This document shows, piece by piece, positions 41,668-55,700 of a stretch of DNA of 64,000 bases. This stretch comes from Daphnia pulex (Eukaryota > Arthropoda > Branchiopoda > Diplostraca > Daphniidae). How positions within the stretch are numbered: the stretch's first letter is position 1; each line of letters begins with the position of its first letter. Made by a program: the position numbers and the translations under genes. The stretch lies in the NCBI RefSeq assembly GCF_021134715.1, contig NC_060017.1, forward strand, positions 4,154,001-4,218,000, read 5' to 3'. The notes under the pieces are model-generated. The model was not told where the DNA came from, ran no database searches, and was given only the letters and a program-made list of their open reading frames with translations.

Positions 41668-43281
41668 ATGGCCGACCCGGAAAACCAGCCCGAACAGCAG
41701 AAGGCTGCCCCGGAAAAGCAAGTCATTGGTAAGACATTGTAGAATTAAGTAATTGTGATTTCATAAAAATAAAATGGCCCGCACCGGCGTGGTGCGAACA
41801 CATCATGGAGGACGCTTCGGTTTACGATAGCCGCCATGACGATGCTATGCCAATAGCTTGCAATAGTGTTTTGTTTTTCGGCTTGACGATTTTCTTTAGT
41901 TGGGTTAGTAATAATAATTTATCTTTCTTTTTCAGCTACCAAAGTGACGGGCGTGGTCAAATGGTTCAATGTGAAGAGTGGATATGGCTTCATCAATCGG
42001 TAAAAAAAAAGTTTATAATCCTTTTGGAAAAATTATATGTTTTCATGATCCTGCATTTAAGATATTTATGGAAATTTAGAACTTCCGAGACAAAGTTTAT
42101 TAATTTATTATGTTTTTTTTTTCAGCAATGACACCAAAGAAGACATCTTTGTCCACCAGGTATTTATTTTTTAATCAAGTCTTTTATGCTCAAGTACATA
42201 ATTGCTGACTTTTCTTGCAGACGGCCATTTCCCGTAACAACCCCAGGAAAGCTGTTAGAAGTGTTGGGGATGGAGAAATTGTCGAGTTTGATGTGGTTGT
42301 TGGTGAGAAGGGCCATGAAGCAGCTAATGTTACTGGGCCAGAAGGTGAACCAGTAAAGGTAATAATTCAAAATTTCGAGTGTTTTAAATAGCACTTGGTA
42401 TAATTTTCTTTTCTTTCATAGGGTTCTCCATATGCTGCCGATCGGCGTGGTCCTGGTGGGTACGGCTACCGTAGACGTGGAGCTGGGGGTACTGGTGGGT
42501 TAGGTAGTGGGTATCGACGCAGGCCAAGAGGATCACGTCGTGAAGGAGATGAGGGTAACACAATGCAAATCTCAAGTTAAAGGAATTTTTCTTAAAACTT
42601 TCCACTTTATAGAAGGTAAAGATCATTCGGAAGAACGCGGAGAGGGAGATGAAGAGAATGATGAATCAAATGCTCCACGAGAAGGTTCTTCTCGTGGACG
42701 TTTCCGTGGCCGTTATCGTGGAGTAAGCTACCGTCCTCGATATTTTAATCGTCCCCGTAAGAACACAGAAGGCGAAGAAGTTTCTGGTGACAAGTCTCAT
42801 ATGGATGGCGATGCTGATCAAGTAAATGATTTCTTTTTATCCCTTATGTGCGAAACGTAAGATTCTAATATTTTTTTGTGTTAAAGGAGGGTGGAGAAGA
42901 AAACAAATCTCGTGGTTCTCGTGGAGGTCTTCGTGATGGTGTCCGAGGAAGTGGTCGTCCTCGGGCTCGCGCTCGCGCTCGTGGCTACTACGGACGTGGA
43001 CGTGGAGCACGTTCCGATCAAGGAGTTGGACAAGAATCATCCGAAGGAGTTCAAGAAGACGGCTCTGGCGACATTCGTGGGGGGTATCGCGGACGTCCTT
43101 TCAGAGGTCGACGTGGCGGACGCAGCCGTGGTGCCAGACCACGCTCCGGAGAGGGAATTGAAGGAAAGGTCAGTATTTTACGAAACTTTTTTTTTAGCTG
43201 CAGATAACTTACACACAAAATTTTTATTTTCAGGTTGAAGGGCAGTCTATGAATGCCACTAGTAATGAGAGCAACGCGTAA
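41668..43281 (+). CDS. Y-box (cold-shock domain) nucleic-acid-binding protein
   Basis: Y-box proteins package and regulate mRNA in cytoplasmic RNPs and can bind DNA. Eight exons (41668-41728, 41936-41999, 42126-42159, 42221-42358, 42422-42554, 42613-42821, 42887-43168, 43234-43281) total 969 bases, giving 322 residues. The cold-shock domain occupies about residues 22-95, with [17 protein letters not shown] (RNP1 motif GYGFI) and EDIFVHQTAI (RNP2), followed by [18 protein letters not shown] and the conserved YAADRRGP. The tail has alternating acidic stretches and Arg/Gly-rich patches ([36 protein letters not shown]), as in YBX1 and fly Yps. The 34-base third exon splits the RNP region. Identity is very secure; which animal paralogue it equals is not decided. 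Confidence 0.95.
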
Positions 43282-46264
43282 ATTCATGATGACTCAAGAA
43301 GGGAGCGTACGCATAGGGTGGGGAATGATGGGGAATCGGACGGGAATTTAATCATCCCTGGCTTATTCCTCTACATTTTGTTTTTGTCTCGATACCAAGA
43401 CGTCATTGTTGGGTGACACTTAGCGTTTCTTTTCTTGGTCGTCCTTCTCCACCTAAAATTACAAATAATGACTAGAATTGTTAACTCTAGCGTAAAACAA
43501 GAGGGAATTGTCTTAATTTAATTTTGATTGGAAAATTCGTCGGTTGTAAGCGGGTCGAAACGATATTTTTTTTTTCTTTATTATCGTGTAAAGGACCTGA
43601 GCTATGGCTTTACATCCCTCCGCATTGCTCTCGTCAACACGTGTGCTTGATTACGAACCATTTGTGCAGAAAATGTGTAGCCAAACCTTTGTGCTCGATC
43701 TCGGTCTTAATACTTTTCCATCCCGTTTTTTTTTGTCCCGAGTTTTGAATCTGTTTTCAATAATTTTGGGTTATAGGAAAATTACTGCAACCACATGTAA
43801 TATTTAGTCAGTTAACTAAGTACAAAATTTGCGCGCCTTAAAGAAAGTGCTGCCGTTTTTTGTTATTTGACCATTTTTTATGTTAAATTTCTTTACCAGC
43901 TCTTAAATTTAAACGGGATTTAAGTAATTGACCAAGATCGAGGCAATTGTTCGTCTATGAAACTTCTGTTCCTCGAGACGAATCGCTCACTTTTTTTTTT
44001 CATTCTATAAATCTGTTGGTTGAAATCTGAATTTGATTTTGTGAAACCTCAAGCTTTGACAGCAAAGTGTTTTGGTAGATTTGTTCAACTGCATTGTGTG
44101 GGAAAATAGTTTTTCCGCTTCGATGAGTCAGACACGTAAACCTTGACTTTTCGCTCCAAAGTTAATTCTAACTTATCCTCATCCACATGCTACTCTATTG
44201 GCAACTGCTGAATCCCTGAGTCTGTACTTGAAGAAACGCTCTTAAAGATTTGTCAATACAACAGCAAAGACACTTGTTCATGTTTTTGTACTTTTTAATA
44301 CTTATTTTTAAGTGTTAATTTAAATTTAAAATATTTCTCCATATTTAATTTTAAATGATAATTAACTTCTTATTTAAAACCTTTATTCCTTATTTTGTGA
44401 AAGAATAGGTATGTTAACAAACAGTTATTGGGATGGTCCGGACGGAATACACATCTTATCTACCCTGGATTACTCAGTATGAGACTTACGTCGAATATGG
44501 TCGGTTGTGAAGGCAATCGAACAGTACGCGTCATTTTATTCGTTGTCTGTTGTCCCATCAGGTTTATAATTCATGGTACATTTACTTCTCATGGTATAGA
44601 AGTATCTTAAAATTTATGTCACTAAATTATAAACAAGACGATTTAATTTACTTTATTTTACGAAGTATCTCTTGACTCGGAATAATTGGTTCTTCAATAT
44701 TGTTTTCGTAGTGTTCATTACGTAGTGATGTACCAGAATTACTTTCCACTTTCCTGGAAGAAAGTATGCAACAAACTTCTAACAGACAGGTATATATGAC
44801 CGAGCTATATTCGGTCTTGCCTAAATGTAAAATCTAAAACAATTTGTGGCTACCAAGCAAAGAAATTGACAATCACCAAGATTTTGGATTTTGTACGGTA
44901 GTTCAGTAAATATTCATTTTGCGTGAAATAGAAGTGTCAGTAAAAAAATATAAGAAAATCGGCCAAAATCGAGATTTTAGAGTTTCCAAAATCCCGATTT
45001 TGGCTGTTCTTTTGGTACTGGTTCTTTACTGACCGCTAGATGCCACTGACTTCAATTGATTTGTCAAGAAACAGCCTGCATAAAAATAAAAAAACATGGC
45101 GAAACAAATTGTTGCTATTATACTTATTTTTCTGTGCCTCCAAATACCGAATTGAATTTCGTTTGTGTGGGTTTATCTTGACCAAGTTTCCTTATTTTTA
45201 CATATTACACCCATTTCTTAAAATTTTAGAAAGTCTTTCGGTCACTCCAACAAGTTGACTTTGTGCTCAGCAGTCACTTTCCATGGTTCATTAGATCCCA
45301 ATGCTGTCGAAAGCCTGAAACTGATATTTGAAACCCACATACAGTGGAATTGGACAAATGTGCCGAGATGAGGTATTTTCCCATTTTTACTACCACACCA
45401 TAAAAATGAAGCATTAAGACTGTTATAATTCATATTTTCATATAACATAGGTATTCTTGCGCATTGACCATAGGATCTTTTCCGAATCTTACGGTTTTGA
45501 TAGTGTAACCTATGACGGCATGTTTGCTATTATGACTGTTTCTACATCCGTTTAGAAGGCAACCCAGCTGAGATATAGGTAGAATTTTATTTTTCATGGA
45601 TAAATTTGTGTAAATTTGTAAATAATGTTTTCCTTATCTCATTGCAATGTAGAGTTTCAGTTACATGAGGAGTGTGAAGTGAATAACCTGCCATGGATGT
45701 GCATGTACCAGATCTGCTTGAAGAGAGTCAAATGCCTTACTGAATGCATCACCCAAATGATAAAGGTAAGCATCATTATCACCTTTTTCCATGCTACAAT
45801 GAGTTTAATGACTGAGAAGTTGCCCAGCCGCCATAGTGTCAATCTACAACGCAGTTTCGTGCGGTCCTGGCACGGACATCCTTTAGCCAATGCTGGCTTT
45901 TGTCCATGACAGAAGAGGGACTTCCACCAACGTTCTGCTCCATCCCTATCTTCACGACGTACGCTCATCAAGCTTCTGCTTCACAGCTTCTTCCACAAAA
46001 ATAAAACTTGTCTTACTTCGCTGACGAGTTGGAAAACTTCAGTGGTCGCTTCCGTGCCGCTGTTACACACCTGCAGTCACTCACCACGGGATTATGCCCA
46101 GGTACCCGACAATTTACTTGTTATTGTAGATTATCTATTCCTAAGTCTACTTACTTGTGTCTGTAATAATTCCGAAATCAGGCCCTAATTGCGCGCAAAC
46201 GTAGTGTTGCTTAGACGTTTTTTTTTTTCTAAAACGCTAGATGGCTTTTCGATAATTGTCAGCT

Positions 46265-46440
46265 GTCAAAACAGTCAATTTCAGTTACTTTGCAAATCTC
46301 TTTTAACATTTATCGGCAGTTATTTTTTGAAATATTTAGTGATAACTGACGATTACTATGCCAGCAACAAAGCTCACTTGTTAAATTTTCGATATTTTGC
46401 TTTTTTTTCTACTTCCGGTTTGCTCATTTAAGTCTGTAGT
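46265..46440. repeat. Dispersed repeat, copy A
   Basis: About 170 bases containing ACATTTATCGGCAGTTATT and ending at TTCTACTTCCGGTTT match, in reverse complement, the stretch near 51010-51180 with scattered mismatches. Landmarks shared in order are TTTGCA.ATCTCT, ACATTTATCGGCAGTT, TTTAGTGATAA.TGAC, CAGCAACAAA and CTACTTCCGGTTT. The family is unknown to me. Confidence 0.7.
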
Positions 46441-46550
46441 TCAGTAAATATTCATTTGAGGAGCAAAAGAACCACATATTCGTGATCCTCGTAAAATTTG
46501 TGGTAAAGTTCATGTTATATTTTTTACGTTTTCGTACTTCCGGTTTCGAA

Positions 46551-46580
46551 AATTTTCCTGAACTATAGTTCAGGAAAATT
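46551..46580. repeat. Perfect 30-base palindrome
   Basis: The 15-base half AATTTTCCTGAACTA is followed directly by its exact reverse complement. It sits in the repeat-rich interval beside CTTCCGGTTT sequences and carries the TAGTTCAG word seen at 44903 and 46438. It may be the join of two repeat copies in opposite orientation. Confidence 0.75.
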
Positions 46581-47240
46581 CTCGATTTTGGCCAAATTTT
46601 GGATTTCGTTTAAATCACACCTAATCGACCCCAAATTTCATGGAGATCACGAATATGTGGTTTAATTTGACGACAGCTCAATTGTTGAGGCGCTGTGGTT
46701 ACTTCCGGTATACTTCCGGAATTTTTTTTTAAAGACTAGCAAGTGAGCTTTGTTATGTTTACAGTTCTCAATATTGTTAGGTAGATTTTAAGCAATTTAA
46801 AGCGCGCCTTTGAAGTTTTGAGCAAAAAAACCAGATCAATGAACCTATTTGTGACTATTATGTAACTTTTATTGGCATGTCACATAATAAGAATTGTTTT
46901 GTCTTTTTTCAGGCAATGCAGAGGAGACGTCGAGAAGATGGATTTTCTCATCTTTAAAAATCGTCACCGGTCTCCGTCGGATGTTGCCCCTGCTCCTGGT
47001 GCGAACGAAACTCGGTGGAGTGAATGGATGTTAGTTCATCATTTACAAGTTACTCACATTTTGGTTGTGTGTATTGTATTCTAATCCAATTTTTCTTATC
47101 TGAATTAGAATGCGCCAACAAAATACTTCTGGCAATGGAAATGGACAATCGCTGACTTGGAAAAAGACAATCGCGGCCGGCACCAAGACTCGTCATCAAC
47201 GTGGATCATCGTATTGTTGGTATTATTGCGTTTGTGTTAG

Positions 47241-47575
47241 TTAACCCGTTGGCTGCCACGCCTTTGTTCTCCCCTAGCTCCTTAGCACGGGCCGCGCTGT
47301 TCGGTCTCGTGGTTTACATGCCGCGGGGTCGGACAGTCGCACCAGCCCCAGATTCGCCGAAAGGCCCTGTTAGGCAATGCACCATAGGGACTCCCCCCTT
47401 GTCGATACGGTGATGGATTCTAGAGGTTGTGCATTCCATCTTCTCCTGTCACCGTGTCAGCCCGGACTTGTCAGCAATGGCAAGTCCCTCCTTGGTCATG
47501 GATCCTTCAGACGTGACGCGTAGAGTAGTAGAAGAACAACCTACGGGTTGTATGGCGTGGCAGCCAACGGGTTAA
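47241..47575. mobile_element. piggyBac-like MITE (non-autonomous)
   Basis: The 327-base element 47245-47571 has perfect 18-base terminal inverted repeats beginning CCCGTTGGCTGCCACGCC. It is flanked on both sides by the target TTAA (47241-47244 and 47572-47575). A TTAA target with ends starting CCC is the hallmark of piggyBac transposons. The interior has no transposase frame and is GC-richer than the surroundings. Perfect ends suggest a fairly recent insertion. Mobilisation would need a transposase elsewhere in the genome. Confidence 0.85.
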
Positions 47576-48114
47576 CTAAGTGTATTGTGTATGTATGTAT
47601 GCATGTATGTGACTGTAAAATGTGGTGGAATTGTGGGAGGAGGTGGGACAATATAACACAATTCTTTCTATTCAGTTTTTTGTTCATTGTCTCTTAATTT
47701 ATCCCAAGTCTTGTTTAGGAATTGTATCAATATATTTCTCTCAACTTCAAAGTCTTTCATTTACACAAAGATCAGCCAATTGCCTTTTACCAAATTTGCA
47801 AAAATCAACAGTTATAAGTGTTTGTCGTATCCTACCCTTGAAACTTCGTCAAAACACAAGAATACGACCGTATGTAGAGCGACTAAGGCAGTAGTCACCT
47901 CCAAAACATAAAACAGACATATCACAACATTGGATACTGGCTTTGAAGAAGTTCAACACCACCCTGCCGCAATGTTGACACGCTTGAAGTTACTTTAAAA
48001 AGAATTTCCGGCATAAAAATTTTTATTTTCTCATTGAAGATCAACAATTAATTCCCAGTGACCAATGGCCAGTTGACCGACAAATGTAAATAAAATCAAA
48101 TAGAAATTTTGGTT
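47576..48114. other. Spacer between the MITE and YYTT copy 1
   Basis: AT-rich sequence with a short GTAT/GCAT-rich stretch at 47585-47612. Short open frames at 47622-47911 overlap but lack domains. Nothing else was recognised. Confidence 0.45.
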
Positions 48115-48998
48115 CTAGTATTTTGGAATTTCCTTGTAGTAAGATCCGGAAGCGTAGTTTGTGGTGTAATAATCGGCTGTCTTAGTGGTGTAGTAACTCG
48201 GGGCAGAGTAGTGATTTCTGAGCTTCGTTGTAGTAGGTGGGAGTAGCGTAAGTAGTGGTGTAGTACTTGGGAGCCTCGGTTGGAAGCGTGGGTTGTAGTG
48301 CAATATACGGCCTCGTCGATGTAGTACTTGGGGGCTTTGATGTAGTACCTGCGAGCAGCGTAGATTGTAGTGTAGTAAATTGGAGCTTCGGTTTATTCCA
48401 GTTCAACGAAGTACGAATTAGCAGCTGCTGTGGTATGTGTAGGACTCCGCTGCCTTCGTGGTGTAGGACTCCGCTGCCTTCGTGGTGTAGGACTCCGCTG
48501 CCTTCGTGGTGTAGGACTCCGCTGCCTTCGTGGTGTAGGACTCCGCTGCCTTCGTGGTGTAGGACTCCGCTGCCTTCGTGGTGTAGGACTCCGCTGCCTT
48601 CGTGGTGTAGGACTCCGCTGCCTTCGTGGTGTAGGACTCCGCTGCCTTCGTGGTGTAGGACTCCGCTGCCTTCGTGGTGTAGGACTCCGCTGCCTTCGTG
48701 GTGTAGGACTCCGCTGCCTTCGTGGTGTAGGACTCCGCTGCCTTCGTATGTTGTTGTCGGAAACAGAAGCCTGAGTTTGGTAGTAGCTTGGAACAGAGTA
48801 GTACTTGAACGCGTCGGTGTAGTAGGCTGGGGCAGACAACTCGGTGGTGTAGTACTTGGGAGCCTTCGTTGTGACTTGGTTATGTAGTAAGGCGGCGTCG
48901 TTACGGTTTGGTACTCACCATAACCAGGAGACATCGGTACACCAGTGGTCGACCCAGCCATCAACGACACAACTCCCAAAAACAGCACGGCGCCATAG
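48115..48998 (-). pseudogene. YYTT-rich secreted protein, copy 1 (frameshifted)
   Basis: Minus-strand sequence encodes a hydrophobic leader (AVLFLGVVSLMAG) and then Tyr/Thr/Pro-rich blocks such as KAPKYYTTELSAPAYYTDA, TEAPIYYTTIYAARRYY, TEAPKYYTTTYATPTYYNEA and APSYYTTKTADYYTTNYA, ending SGSYYKEIPKY at stop 48115-48117. These blocks sit in different reading frames: at least five frame changes are needed to read them as one protein, and the KAAESYTT repeat frame ends in a stop after SYTYHSSC. The leader frame also has no ATG of its own in this exon (the nearby ATG reads a different frame to a stop). I therefore call a decayed gene. Real sequence indels from assembly could mimic this. The protein type resembles repeat-rich cuticle or matrix proteins of arthropods; function is not known. 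Confidence 0.65.
48437..48748. repeat. 24-base minisatellite, thirteen copies
   Basis: Thirteen units of 24 bases (starting GTGTAGGACTCCGCTGCCTT) run without spacing; all agree except the last two bases of the final unit. On the minus strand one frame reads KAAESYTT, an 8-residue variant of the flanking KAPKYYTT motif. Because 24 is a multiple of three and the unit lacks stops in several frames, long spurious open frames (EGSGVLHH, RRQRSPTP, and RTPLPSWC on the plus strand) arise over it. Confidence 0.95.
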
Positions 48999-49123
48999 TA
49001 AGTTAACTAAACAATTGGCGATATGAAAATTAATTTTCGAATGTAGCTGGTCATATCAACAACTAAAACAAAATGGAATTGATTCAAGAATCGAAATAAA
49101 AATGAATATTTACCGAATCGGTA

Positions 49124-49447
49124 TTACGACGAAGAATACAGTTGGTGACAAATATTGCGCTGCAGCTGTTGCTGTGTCGGGTGTCGGAGATGAACACTCG
49201 ACTGCTTTCTATCGTACTGGGGCACTTCTGTGTAGTATTCGACCACTTTAGTGTTGTAATAAGCTGGAGAATCGGTGTAGCTGAGAGCAGAGTAGTACTT
49301 TGGAGCATCGGTGTAGTATTCAGGCGCTTTATTAGTAGTCTAGCTCGGGGAAGAAGAATAATACTTCAGGGCAAGTGCAGTAGCTGTAGTGTAAGACCCA
49401 GCGATCAACGACACAACAACCAAGAACAGCAATGCAGCACGACGGCA
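49124..49447 (-). pseudogene. YYTT-rich secreted protein, copy 2 (nonsense and fusion)
   Basis: A leader (RAALLFLVVVSLIAGSYTT) runs in one frame into KYYSSSPS, a TAG stop at 49340-49342, then TTNKAPEYYTDAPKYYSA and YYNTKVVEYYTEVPQY. The stop stands where the repeat expects Tyr. After VPQY the frame continues into DRKQSSVHLRHPTQQQLQ, whose DNA is homologous to the 5' leader exon of copy 3 (near 49850-49780). So coding sequence runs directly into an upstream leader of the next copy, with the intervening 3'UTR and TATA box lost. The leader retains its GTAAATATT donor at about 49118. This is best read as a recombination product between tandem copies. Confidence 0.65.
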
Positions 49448-49556
49448 TAGTTTACTAGACAATATTCAATATTCAATCATAACGAGCATATTAACAAATA
49501 GAAACAAATATTTAAAATTGATACAAAGCTCAATTAACAGAATATTTACCCATGAC

Positions 49557-49859
49557 GAAATTCAATTACCGCTCGACAAAATTTTGCTGTCTCCTTTTCT
49601 TTCGTGCTCACACTAACACTCGTGCTAACACCCAACAGCAACACAACGCCATGGCTAACTATAAAATAGACGATTTGAAAATTAATTTGTGAATACAACC
49701 AGTCATATCAACAACTAAAATAAGATAGAATTCATTCACGACTCGAAATAAAAATGAATAATTACCTATGATTGCGAACCGTTTATGCGATGAAGAAGGT
49801 AGTTGAAAAAAGTGTGCTGCAGTTGTTGCCGTGTCGGAGATGCTCACTCGACTGATTTC
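49557..49859 (-). pseudogene. YYTT family copy 3: leader exon and truncated second exon
   Basis: A non-coding leader exon (about 49854-49767, donor GTAATTATTC) lies just downstream of a TATA promoter. After an intron, an exon at about 49658-49557 begins after TTTTATAG and encodes HGVVLLLGVSTSV in the frame of the other copies' signal peptides, then runs KFCRAVIEFRHG to a GTAAATATT donor. No YYTT repeats remain. Compared with copy 1 the exon start is four bases shorter, so its frame is shifted. I interpret it as the promoter-bearing but truncated end of the array. Confidence 0.5.
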
Positions 49860-49886
49860 CCTTCGCCTTTTCTCTCTCCTTTTATA
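49850..49886 (-). promoter_or_regulatory. TATA and initiator promoter of the YYTT array
   Basis: On the minus strand TATAAAAG occupies 49886-49879 and the initiator TCAGTC 49855-49850, with the presumed +1 A at 49853, about 33 bases from the TATA. This is the same layout as the ELOVL promoter. It is the only clear promoter found for the three YYTT copies. Confidence 0.65.
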
Positions 49887-49950
49887 CGATTTTTCCTCAC
49901 CCTCACCTCTTGAGCCTTGCGGCTATAGTACCTGCTTGATAATGAAGCAA

Positions 49951-50273
49951 CACGTGTCGTTCTCACCCAACCTCTACACCACTGCATGACACGTTTTTTT
50001 GTGACCTTCAAGTGAAACACATGCAAACTGGCCTTTCCTTTTGCAGGTGGGCGTTGCTGGGGATGGGTCAGCAACAACCAATATCAAAATGAATACCAAA
50101 TGGTTATGTAACACATCCCGTTCTCACCCAACCTCTACACCACTGCATGACACGTTTTACGTAATGATCTCCGTGACCTTCGATTATGAAAGATATGTAA
50201 ACTGGCCCTTCCTCCTGCAGGTTGACGTTGCTGGGATGGGTTTACAACCATTATCAAAATGAATACCAAATGA
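49951..50273. repeat. 161-base tandem duplication
   Basis: The stretch from about 49951 recurs from about 50112 with a period of 161 bases. Shared words include TTCTCACCCAACCTCTACAC, CACTGCATGACACGTTTT, AAACTGGCC and AAAATGAATACCAAATG. The copies differ by substitutions and a small insertion, so it is not recent. It lies just upstream of the YYTT promoter and may duplicate regulatory sequence. Confidence 0.8.
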
Positions 50274-50751
50274 TTATAGCTTAAACTTTTTTCACTTTTT
50301 ACCAATTAACATTTGAGTCATTTGACTCGTTTCTTCGGTGAATGAATTAATCTTCTATTTCGAACCATTTGAAGGAAAGTCGGTTTTTTGAAAAACAAAA
50401 TTCCTCTGCAACCACCGTTATCCAAGCTCACTATCCTCCAAACTACAAACCCTCACTCAAGTGACTCAACAAGTTTTTCCTTGCTCAAATCACAGCATCA
50501 GACAAGTCTAGTCTACAGTAGATAAAAAATTGCTCACAATGAATAAAACAGATGAATAATTGCTTGAAATGCTGTTCAACTTACACATTACAGCTGATTG
50601 GATTCTAGTTTCTTCTCTGCCACTCTTTGCTGAAAAGTCAGCCTGACATTAGGCCATTAGCTGAGGAAGAATAACAAGAGAATGTAACATGCGTAACATG
50701 TACCATCACTGCAAATTTAAAGGTAAATAAGCTTACCAAGAGTACGACTGT

Positions 50752-50882
50752 ACGAGTCACTTGAGCAACAATGGCGCCATGAGTCAGCATAGCAGAGAGG
50801 TAGAGGGGAAATCGTGGGCTTGATCCTTCAGTTCCTGGGTTTCCCGTTCCCGTTATTACATATCGAACAATTTCTTGGCTGC
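50752..50882 (-). other. Possible orphan exon
   Basis: On the minus strand a good acceptor (TCTCTATTTGCAG) precedes an open stretch reading QEIVRYVITGTGNPGTEG and PLYLSAMLTHGAIVAQVT, ending at CTCTTG|GTAAGC, a consensus donor. The peptide is not one I recognise. It may be an internal exon of an unknown gene or of a mobile element. Confidence 0.3.
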
Positions 50883-51009
50883 AAATAGAGAACGAATTCA
50901 AGCCAATATTGCAAAAGAAATTTTAAATCTGAAACCATCATGCTACCAAATTCGGTCGACTCGCACTTGGAGCATCAGGAGACGTAAGTCATGCTTAGAT
51001 TGAAATACA

Positions 51010-51185
51010 AACTCATTTAGAAACCGGAAGTAGGAAAAAAGCACATTTTAAAAAAATCTAACAAATGAGTTTGTTGCTGACACAGTCACTGTCATTTATC
51101 ACTAAAAATGTCTTCACAACAACTGCCGATAAATGTTTTAGAGATGTGCAAAGTACTGCAACAAATGCAAAATGAGCTGCAAAAT
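51010..51185. repeat. Dispersed repeat, copy B (inverted)
   Basis: This is the reverse-complement partner of the repeat at 46265-46440, starting at AAACCGGAAGTAG and containing AACTGCCGATAAATGT. The two copies are about 4.7 kb apart and moderately diverged. Confidence 0.7.
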
Positions 51186-51327
51186 AAGCTTCTACTCATC
51201 TAGCGTTAGAAAGAAAAATGTTTAAAATGGTTTGAAAACCATTCCCTCTTTAGGTCATCCCCACTAATTAAAATAACAAAGACATAACAAATAAGAAACA
51301 TCGATACTTACGCAATATTCTCTTCAC

Positions 51328-51416
51328 TATATAATCACATCATCTTCTCATCACCATCACCAAGAAACCACCACACATCACCAAGACACCAACAGCCAAA
51401 AATTAAACTCAAAATG
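51328..51416 (+). promoter_or_regulatory. Promoter and ATG-only first exon, possibly stranded
   Basis: TATATAA at 51328-51334 is followed by an ACC/ATC-rich leader and AAAATG|GTGAGT with ATG at 51414-51416. An exon that ends right after the ATG is common in arthropod cuticle-type genes. No matching second exon is evident; a Mutator-like element sits 88 bases further on. It could be a gene fragment or chance. Confidence 0.3.
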
Positions 51417-51495
51417 GTGAGTCAGTCAAATGTCTCCATCCTGCTCCCGAGCAGTTGGCCGATGGCCGTCGTGAATTCTAAGCTAACTCGCAGAC

Positions 51496-52440
51496 GAACT
51501 TTCGGGGCGTCCCTAAAATGCGAAAGCGAAACGCGAAACGCGAAACGCCTAAAATGCGAAACAGCTGTGCGAAACGGACCCAAAAGTTGGGACCCTGTTT
51601 CGCATTTTAGTCTTTGGGTCCGTACTAAACTGCGAAATCGGTGTGTGCGAAACGTCGCAGTGTAAACGTCTTGGTAGCAGACGACAATGGACGCCATCAA
51701 CCAACAAATTGTTAGAGTTTCAATTTATCGAGACTTCGAGTTTCGCACACCTTATGACCGGTCTATTTGTGTGTTGACCATGAATACGGAATACCTTGAA
51801 TGCATTAGGTGTTTTTGATTAAAAGATTGGTATGAAAAAATTAATGGGAAATTTAATTCATGTATCAATCATATTAACATTCTTAATTTTAAGGAAAGTT
51901 TTAGCCGATTAAATTTTAGCTTGATTTGGAACATGGGAGCTTTGATGTTTAGCTTGATATAAGGCACTCATACTGTTATGGCCGATGCTTTCTTTGTGCA
52001 CGTACCTACTGGTTGATTTAAATTATTTAATGTAATGTATAATCCCTGGGCCATTACCTAATATTTTATTATTTAAAAATATCACCATAACGTGCTGCTC
52101 TATGTCTTTCATTAGTTTAATTATCGTAAAATGCGCATTAAAAAATACAGGGGTAGTGGCGAAGAAATCGAATTTGATTGCCCCCCTTCCTCCTTTAATG
52201 CCTCATCATAGCGGGAGACAACGAAAAATGGCGGCAATCTCCGTCAATTTGGACCTCTGTGGAGAAAAGGAAAACTTCGTTTCGCAAGATGTTTCGCTCT
52301 TTAGTATGCCCTCCGGCATTTGGTCCCGCGAAACGGTCCCAAAATTTTGGTCCGTTTCGCACAGCTTTTCCGCATTTTAGGCGTTTCGCGTTTCGCGTTT
52401 CGCGTTTCGCTTTCGCAGTTTAGGGACGCCCGAACTTTCG
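51496..52440. mobile_element. Mutator-like MITE with 9-base target duplication
   Basis: The 927-base element 51505-52431 is bounded by inverted repeats beginning GGGCGTCCCTAAA and flanked by the direct repeat GAACTTTCG (51496-51504 and 52432-52440). The inverted repeats extend about 90-100 bases and contain tandem GCGAAAC units; the right end has one more repeat unit than the left. Long inverted ends plus a 9-base duplication are the hallmarks of Mutator/MULE elements. No transposase frame is present, so it is non-autonomous. Further TGCGAAA words occur subterminally on the left side. Confidence 0.85.
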
Positions 52441-52734
52441 GCCTTTTGCGAGAACTGTGGGCATCTAACGCGGGGTTGCCAAATTCTCTTTGTATAAATC
52501 AACTCCGGTCCGGAAACCGGAATCCGGATACGCACAACGCACGCAATCGATGACCATATCTCTATAACTATAACAATGCAAAAATCGGCAAAAATAACAT
52601 TAATTCGTCTTATCCTGGTTCGTACAAGGGGTCTCTTTTATAATCAGAAAATCAGAAACCCAATTCCAAAAAATTTTATTATATAATCTCCTTGTTACTC
52701 AACAGAACAGTACACAATTAATAATTAATTAAAA

Positions 52735-55700
52735 CTATACTTTCCGAGATAGAGTGCGTTGTTTCTCGGCGAACTCTACGACCTTTTCAGATACTGCCAA
52801 TCCTTTGCGGCGCCGTACTGAGTTCATATAAATGTGAGCACGATTAACGGAATCTCCTTTATCACCGTACAACTCCAGCTCTTCATCGGTGGTGGGAACC
52901 CAAAACGGATCAATATCAATCACCTAATAAAAGAAAGGACATTTGAATTTTTTTTTCGATTACAATACGTTAAGGAAATGAATTATATCTATTATCTATT
53001 TTTTAAATATTACAACAGCTTTAAAATCAATATATGGGTTGGATTGTTAAAAATTTGAATGAGAGCATACACAACTACAAACTACAACACCAAATACGTT
53101 TAAGGTAAGAAAAGATTTTAAAAAGTATCCTCTAATCACTGCAAATTTGACACTTAAACTTCTGTGGGCTGATCAATCACACCAGTTCCAACAGGCAAAC
53201 ATTTTTTTTCTACATTTTGTATCATTGCAACTGAGGTAGCATAAGCTCTGCGACAATGAAAAGTCGATTAACAATGAATTCTGTTTTAATTTAGTTTGAC
53301 CAAGACTGACAACTCTGTTCGGGCAATCCACAAACGAGAAGAAAACGAAACATATTTAGGGGAAAAGATAGAGATAAAAAAAGGAATACAAATATTATAC
53401 ATAACTATACATCCATAAAAATCCTAGGTTTAACAGAAAACACACATGTGTTTTAAAGCTGTATTTATTACTTCTAACTTAACCAAGTAGTAACGTTAAA
53501 TTTTAGCGGTACCTCCCAATGGCTAAAAACCAGCTGATGGCTAGCCAAACCTGACGTTTGCTTGCGTATTTCGTTTGCTAAGTCGAAGGACTCCACGACA
53601 GGCAAAACAGCAGTAATACTAAAGGAAGCAGATCCTTCCTCTAGATCTCCATCCAAAATTTTGCCATGGCGCCGACTTAATACCCCATACATTTTACCTA
53701 CAATTCAAACGTAATATCAGCTTAAAAAATTCAACTCACTTGTAAATCATGAAAAATATTAACATTTCACTTACCAACCACCTCGCCACTGACTTGGATG
53801 GAGCAAGTGTACATTGCAGCCATAAGCCGCTGCGGCTGATTCATAAATGCTCGTCTGCATCCATCCTTGACGACTGACATGATCTGGCCAGTGAGTGAGC
53901 CATACTGTTGTTGAAGGTTGCTGCCGTCATTGTTGTCATCTCCATTGGATAAGGGTGTGGACGGATGGTTTAGCATGATAGACAAGTCTTCTAGGATGAA
54001 AGCAACTCCAAATAAAGGTTCTTCACAGAGAGGTCCAGCTAGAGTTGCTAACTGAAAACCATTGATAACGCTGCTAAGGCACTCCAAAGTTGATCTTTCG
54101 ACAATAGTTTCGGGTACATTTCTCTTCCATGGATTAGGTAAAGTAATTGGCGAATAGTTAATTAGCACGTTAGGTCCACATCGACGTGGTCCAAAACTGA
54201 GAATCTTATCCACGGCATTATCCTTCCAATCACTTCTTTGGAAAGCTTGATCCAGTTCGTCATAGAGTTTGCTAATTTTACTTTGCAATTGTAAGATGAG
54301 CTTTTCATTCAATTCGTCTTCGATCGCTGTCGTTTCCAGGGAATTTACGCATCGAGTTTGACTCATGGTTCTAATTATGTCAACGTGCTTTTCTAGCAAA
54401 GCGGTGACTTCTTCTGGAAGTGATACGGCTCGTAAACGCATCGAAAATCGCTTTCCTGAAGTATTTACTTCAACGCGGCCAGCGCTGTCATTATCAATGG
54501 GTTCCAAAGGGGCCACTATAGTCTCGCGGAATGGAACAATAGGCTGTGATGCATTAATTTCAATTTTTGCATAAGATTCTCTAAGATCTCGGAGACATCG
54601 TTGTAAATGGACTTCACCAGCGGTGATTAATACGTGTTCTCCACTTTCTTGCAGTACCACCTGTTATTAAGAAAAGGTTAGACGCACTACACGTTTAATG
54701 TTATTGGAAATGAAAGAAGTTACCTGAACGCAAGGGTCAGCTTGGTTTAGAAGTTTAAGACCTTTAATGAGTTCAGGCATTTCACTAGGCCGTGCGGGTT
54801 CTACAGCCACGCGCACAATAGGCACAACCATTTGAGACAGTTCAGTGAAGGCAGGACAAGTCAGAGTAGAGCTTAGAGTTCCTGATTTAAGAATATGCTC
54901 TTCTAAACCACCTATACCGACCACGCTTCCAGCTGGAGCACTCTCCAAAGTTTCCAGCTCCCGACCCATCATAAGGTACAGATCCCCAATTTTGACACGA
55001 GTAACGTGATGGCCGCTTTTCAAATCCTGAATTCATAGAATAATGAAAATGTTAATCATTCTTTCATTTCTATCGCAAATGAACTTACTTTTAAAGTCAA
55101 GCTGGGATCAATGTCGCCCTCCGTCGGGCACTCCATGGGATCATACTTTGGACCCAAAACGTACAATTCCTGTCCTTTTTTTAGGGTTCCGCTGAAGACA
55201 CGGGCGAAAGCAACGAAAACAGGAGCTTCTTCAATTACTTCTTTTGGTTTTACTGGTTCTTCAACTTCACAAACTTTTCCTTGCTCTTGTTGTAGAGTAA
55301 GTTCGGCGAGTTTCTGTCTGACTTGCTGCCGGCGAAGTGCAATATCCTCGCAAGTTAAAAGTGTTACTTTACTCTTGGGCAAACATTGTCGATCCACCTA
55401 GATTGTAAGCAAAAATTTATCACAGATCTTTTCAAATATTCAATTATTTTACACTATCACACACGTCTAAATTGTTCAAGTTTAATTTAATATTGATTAC
55501 AGAATCGTTCTTTTACCATTATCATTTTTGAAACAAACGCGATTGCAGGTGCATCGCTGGAAGAAGAACATGCTACGAATGCCTTTTTTAGTTGCTGTGT
55601 AGCTTCAGGAAGTAAACAAAATGGTTTTGACAGTGAAGACATAAGCTTTTCAGCTTTCGCATCGGTTATGTCAGACGGACTAGGTAATTTTTCGCAAACC

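Follow-up and report, generated by a model that had tools for sequence, protein, structure and literature searches.

The array at 48115-49886 on the minus strand of the window (the 64,000-nucleotide stretch of Daphnia pulex DNA that was analyzed) is most likely a dead copy, mosaic in make-up, from a very large gene family that encodes putatively secreted proteins with YYTT repeats. Its cassettes were most plausibly fused by unequal recombination, and it lies in one arm of a palindrome type that occurs genome-wide. Homology between cassettes, a fused junction, a mosaic make-up, and several coding lesions were all present in the array, the family has hundreds of matches in the genome, and its palindromes recur at many loci. 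The first-pass annotation, which had described the array as a decayed tandem cluster of such genes, was real and not a product of chance; it was confirmed in part and corrected in the points given below.

Layout, junction, and origin of the array

Read from 5' to 3', the array consisted of a TATA box, leader 1, a rudiment, a YYTT-coding segment fused to leader 3, and a last exon, and it also contained a 24-bp tandem array that had been absent from the earlier description. The claim that the outermost copy alone has a TATA promoter held, as TATAAAAGG was found 5' of leader 1 and nowhere else in the array. Donors and acceptors were of standard form. Each leader had been said to be followed by the same donor; two of the three, those after the rudiment and leader 3, were indeed GTAAATATT, and that of leader 1 was GTAATTATT.

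Features of the YYTT array and its flanks (positions in the window)
Feature	Position	Strand	Basis or remark
TATA box TATAAAAGG	49886-49878	-	Profile search; sole one found, 5' of leader 1
Leader 1 (exon 1), start TCAGTCGAG, donor GTAATTATT	49855-49766	-	LEAD profile match 49855-49760
Rudiment: exon-2 start VSHGVVLLLGV joined to leader end TCATGG, then donor GTAAATATT	49658-49550	-	Weak (10-11 of 500 shuffles)
Second exon-2 segment with YYTT repeats, acceptor TCTAG	49454-49216	-	Profiles and frame reading
Leader 3, joined to the coding segment, donor GTAAATATT	49215-49114	-	Alignment
Last exon-2 segment up to the family stop TAG	49006-48115	-	Profiles; TEND profile match 48138-48045
24-bp tandem array, 13 perfect copies, TKAAESYT in the repeat frame	48437-48747	-	Repeat search
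Upstream promoter region, unit of ~170 bp present twice, also at other family loci	49915-50284	-	Repeat families D9, D10, and D12
Inner arm, common to other loci	45098-48114		~45098 is the position of the palindrome centre elsewhere
MITE-like insert in the inner arm, perfect 26-bp inverted ends	47237-47579		Repeat search

The relatedness of the copies was assessed by comparing each alignment score with those of 500 dinucleotide shuffles of the sequence. Leader 3 (49110-49215) aligned with leader 1 (49760-49860) at a score of 56, which none of the 500 shuffles reached (highest score, 32), and the introns behind these leaders (49000-49114 and 49655-49770) aligned at 127, compared with a highest shuffle of 33. 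The shorter intervals 49190-49240 and 49790-49860, the second of which was extended by 10 bases, were also similar (score, 25; highest shuffle, 23), and the repeat families D3 (111 nt, 83%) and D14 (29 nt, 90%) likewise linked the two leader regions. Chance similarity was thus ruled out for leader 3, and for the rudiment the comparison was not decisive: the score of its leader part (49540-49612) against leader 1 was reached by 11 of 500 shuffles, that of the intron behind it against intron 1 by 5, and that of its exon start (49600-49658) by 10 against exon 3 and by 156 against exon 2. The LEAD and exon-2 profile searches of the window array also missed the rudiment, whose reading frame is open, lacks YYTT repeats, and exits in phase 2 compared with phase 1 in the family. 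Of the three related head-to-tail copies originally described, the two bearing leaders 1 and 3 stood, and the third was only a rudiment.

The passage of copy 2 coding sequence into the leader of copy 3 was borne out and could be placed. YYTT-coding DNA runs straight into leader 3 at ~49215, a point that falls 3' of the expected TATA position and 5' of the start site, and neither a TATA box nor the 3' end of the preceding gene is present. The sequence 5' of leader 3 was ACGATAGAAAgCAGTCGAG, and the equivalent core-promoter site in the intact gene L033 was ACGATAGAAAtCAGTCGAG. This comparison places the break 3' of the TATA box and 5' of the start site, with ~10 bases of the core promoter retained and the TATA box lost.

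When the array was compared in 100-base pieces with seven loci, positions 49950-48901 were nearest to L023 (C1, 4.05 Mb; 83 to 100%), positions 48900-48751 were nearest to the next cassette of the same locus (94 to 100%), and positions 48450-48001 were nearest to L024 (C1, 3.67 Mb; 88 to 96%); the 24-bp array region was similar across several loci. The array is thus a mosaic drawn from two further copies on C1, one L023-like and one L024-like, a pattern which implies that one L023 cassette was skipped and that the 3' half came from a different lineage. Furthermore, the 5' part of the array, including the fused junction, recurred in L023, 150 kb away, with 92.8% identity over 1,082 columns. The fusion is therefore older than the window locus, and a unique local collapse was ruled out. 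The notion of a single cluster that had collapsed at this site had to be abandoned on both this shared front and the finding of fused arrays at 27 of 39 family loci.

These features are best accounted for if leader-plus-exon cassettes were gained and lost through unequal recombination between similar copies. In one such event, a YYTT-coding segment would have been joined to a leader farther along, with the breakpoint in the core promoter of that leader, 3' of the TATA box and 5' of the start site; this single step would have removed the TATA box as well as the 3' end of the preceding gene. A second exchange would have skipped a cassette that L023, a close relative of the array, still has, and an L024-like copy would have supplied the 3' half. 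The unit that contains the array corresponds to a single arm of the genome-wide palindrome type, which carries two such genes in facing orientation.

The surroundings of the array contained several further features. The homology of the upstream promoter region between family loci petered out ~345 to 460 bases outward. At 42110-43290 on the plus strand, a Y-box-like gene with a cold-shock domain and RG-rich exons (Pfam CSD, E value of 8e-6, score of 26 bits, cut-off 27) ended ~1.8 kb from the inner end of the YYTT unit. An inverted-repeat element with arms of 44 nt (98%) and 72 nt (92%) and runs of the heptamer GCGTTTC was located at 51505-52431, and an inverted piece at 51016-51218 was ~80% like the inner-arm segment 46222-46421 and also had matches inside the arms of other loci.

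The intact family and the decay of the window copy

The plan of an intact member was read from 12 genes of the same genome. It comprises a TATA promoter, a leader ending in the start codon, one intron, and one exon. The leader usually ends in ATGG immediately before GTAAATATT, and exon 2 opens with TTAACTATGGCG, which is translated as MVNYGVVLLLGVVSLMAGSTTGVPM and followed by the YYTT repeats. The N-terminal part of the protein is, on our reading, a predicted signal peptide. Intact genes had open frames of 300 to 600 codons, and 11 of them, compared in 55 pairs, gave Ka/Ks values of 0.06 to 0.39 throughout, with many Ks values above 1 (saturated) and uncertain alignments of the repeats; these look like working genes. 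The family is very large: a 25-mer from the leader had 598 genome matches at up to three mismatches and a 41-mer from exon 2 had 289, and the control had none in either search. Two composite YYTT protein sequences matched no Pfam family, and no PDB sequence matched the YYTT protein, so that assignment to a known protein family was dropped.

In addition, three features of family loci were recorded. The 24-bp arrays were perfect within a locus and showed single-base differences between loci, as if locally homogenised. The motif GTGACCTTC was repeated in the promoters of the family (window positions 49915-50284); we take these motifs to resemble nuclear-receptor half-sites, which would presumably fit expression in the moult cycle. 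L024 carried a different tyrosine- and threonine-rich, coding-like stretch 500 to 750 bases upstream of its YYTT promoter.

The window array shared with the family its TATA box, its TCAGTCGAG start, a leader of ~100 nt, and a 3' end and inner arm like those of other loci; a leader closing with a start codon (ATGG directly before GT) and a YYTT-repeat exon 2 open to its stop were both missing. Leader 1 contained no ATG and ended in ATAG in place of the ATGG of intact genes, and leader 3 had no ATG 5' of its donor. The segment that begins at 49454 reached a stop after 15 codons in the family phase and had an in-frame TAG in the repeat frame. The last exon carried a 4-base insertion at its start relative to nine aligned copies; in the family phase, it stopped after 29 codons, with two stops in all up to 48115, and an alternative phase that was open for 274 codons was not the repeat frame. 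The array thus belongs to the family by descent and looks dead, probably yielding no protein.

Palindromes, fused arrays, and competing readings

Ten loci, chosen for symmetric matches, were viewed for palindromes. In the first set viewed, the arms were 92 to 100% alike over kilobases; in C9i, two intact convergent genes lay in arms that were 99.1% alike over 3.9 kb, and the arms of C7i were only 85% alike. At the 7 of 10 loci for which both arms were obtainable, a 1-kb inner segment was 99.7 to 100% identical between arms of the same locus, compared with 85.4 to 97.5% (median, 89.4%) between loci. Six of seven aligned centres were one sequence, common to C3, C4, C7 (two loci), C9, and C11, and C11a differed; a 26-mer from the centre had 195 genome matches (control, 0). 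Opposite-strand neighbours within 22 kb were convergent in 25 of 26 cases among the 100 exact leader matches listed and in 19 of 21 among the first 100 exon-2 matches listed. Among 40 scored inner-arm copies, 18 formed nine within-locus pairs, all of which were in diverging order with near-equal scores. DNA homologous to the MITE-like insert was found in both intact and decayed palindromes. The window itself holds one arm (unit, ~45098-50366): no long inverted partner was found within 45000-53000, and the genome match list showed a single full copy nearby.

The simplest account of these data would be one ancestral palindrome present in many copies, with arms homogenised within each locus, most likely by gene conversion, which usually underlies patterns of this kind. 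More tentatively, and at somewhat less than even probability, we propose that a gene-bearing palindromic unit formed once, was copied to well over a hundred places, and multiplies whether its gene works or not, so that it would carry intact, selected genes as well as broken ones, its arms being homogenised within each locus as the loci diverge. Six C4 loci (L037, L039, L048, L054, L055, and L056, at 3.88 to 5.54 Mb) had the same extra base in GCTACTTACTGCACC, with a stop directly behind it in five of the six, and a variant of this string also occurred in L032 (C5). Since the six loci share one frameshift, copying of the unit continued once its frame was broken, and dead copies multiplied. The same observation, together with the common centre, its 195 matches, and the MITE-like insert common to the copies, would also be expected if the palindrome were a mobile element with the YYTT gene as cargo and the window held half of one insertion. 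That reading is possible but rather unlikely, since the arm ends differed among the four palindromes compared, the outer homology between copies was ragged and faded at different distances, and Pfam detected no transposase in the three proteins tested, in which the inner part was represented by one ORF of one locus. A standard transposon with fixed ends was likewise unsupported by the differing arm ends.

The TATA box and start-site motif retained in the window, and the convergent geometry of the neighbours among the exact leader matches listed, would suit transcription of the array into a noncoding RNA, with read-through of paired loci giving a long hairpin that feeds small-RNA control of the family. 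This is improbable for the copy at hand: a hairpin cannot form from the window, as only one arm is present there, and Rfam reported no structured RNA at the gathering score within 42000-54000, on which ground a structured RNA was dropped.

Several leaders or exon starts on one strand, seen in leader, exon-start, and 3'-end profiles, were found at the 27 of 39 loci mentioned above, a nonrandom sample in which palindromes had been picked for symmetric matches and other loci ranked by protein score. The fusion in the window is one instance of a tendency seen across the family. Among these 27 multicassette loci, L030 was the one whose last exon stayed open as far as the 3' end over at least 300 codons; of 12 single-cassette loci, 11 were open for at least 303 codons, the exception being L053. 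In L030, a TATA box precedes the first leader alone, the first cassette is dead, the second leader lacks a TATA box, and the last exon is open for 303 codons, with Ka/Ks values of 0.07 to 0.39 against 10 other intact genes, which suggests a precedent within the family for a live read-through plan. Multicassette arrays are not always dead, because the internal cassettes of L045, plus two cassettes of L046/L047, were open to a phase-1 donor with no stops (one acceptor was GG). The differences between the L045 and L046 internal cassettes, three synonymous and three nonsynonymous in c2 and one and three in c3, were too few to judge selection. In addition, C4, C9, L028, L048, and C7b contained internal leaders with a TATA box of their own, and C7b included a 519-codon open exon, mostly 24-bp array, whose twin in the other arm stopped after 16 codons.

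The first-pass annotation had left open whether the decayed array was dead or still a live fused unit, in which splicing of leader 1, transcribed from the promoter at 49886, would skip the dead segments and join it to the last exon to yield a protein. The decay was upheld, with a missing ATG, frameshifts, and stops. The example of L030 and the standard splice sites of the window speak for a live unit; such a unit is nevertheless very improbable here, because leader 1 lacks an ATG, the last exon stops after 29 codons, and a start at the surviving ATG, which closes the rudiment (49550), would run into exons with stops after 15 or 29 codons. Finally, PacBio reads with a missed adapter can produce false palindromes, and the remaining suggestion, that the palindromes are assembly artefacts, is scarcely credible when the same centre sequence occurs at different places, the arms show small changes, the outer flanks of a palindrome differ, and one pair of arms is just 85% alike.

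Comparison with known systems

If the proposed history is true, the unit would be a dispersal unit intermediate between gene families and mobile elements, with autosomal palindromes kept up by gene conversion from arm to arm in a cyclical parthenogen. The YYTT palindromes offer many independent cases of a single type, spread across chromosomes, so that gene conversion between arms could be measured on autosomes instead of a sex chromosome, and the intact and broken copies of one unit allow one to ask whether the DNA block or its gene drives the spread. They also set a trap for annotation, since dozens of fused leader/exon arrays mimic multiexon genes. A search of titles and abstracts in the open-access literature, with subscription papers outside its scope, returned no report of the YYTT family or of palindromes in Daphnia.

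With ordinary tandem arrays that contain pseudogenes and undergo unequal crossing-over, the window array shares the gain and loss of cassettes, fused junctions, and mosaics, and the window copy does not differ from them in principle. Taken alone, it is an ordinary pseudogene; what is unusual is its family, in which a gene-bearing palindrome recurs throughout the genome. Passages of an earlier study describe 24-bp tandem repeats of D. pulex as denser in coding sequence than elsewhere (PMC3152781). The YYTT family carries 24-bp arrays as well and may contribute to that class, although those passages name no family.

Genes in palindromes have been described in parthenogenetic animals, with 19 in Adineta vaga and 15 or 16 in Folsomia candida; according to passages of the same survey, D. 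pulex was excluded for want of an annotation (PMC7953838). Both systems consist of palindromic genes in animals, and the YYTT palindromes differ in being one repeated unit. Mammalian sex-chromosome palindromes resemble them in being gene-bearing inverted repeats with nearly identical arms, a likeness shown there to result from gene conversion, as for the human Y palindrome P6 (PMC3723533). In contrast, the YYTT palindromes have short arms (~4 to 6 kb) and are spread over many contigs with one centre and one gene family, and conversion between their arms is a probable explanation of their likeness.
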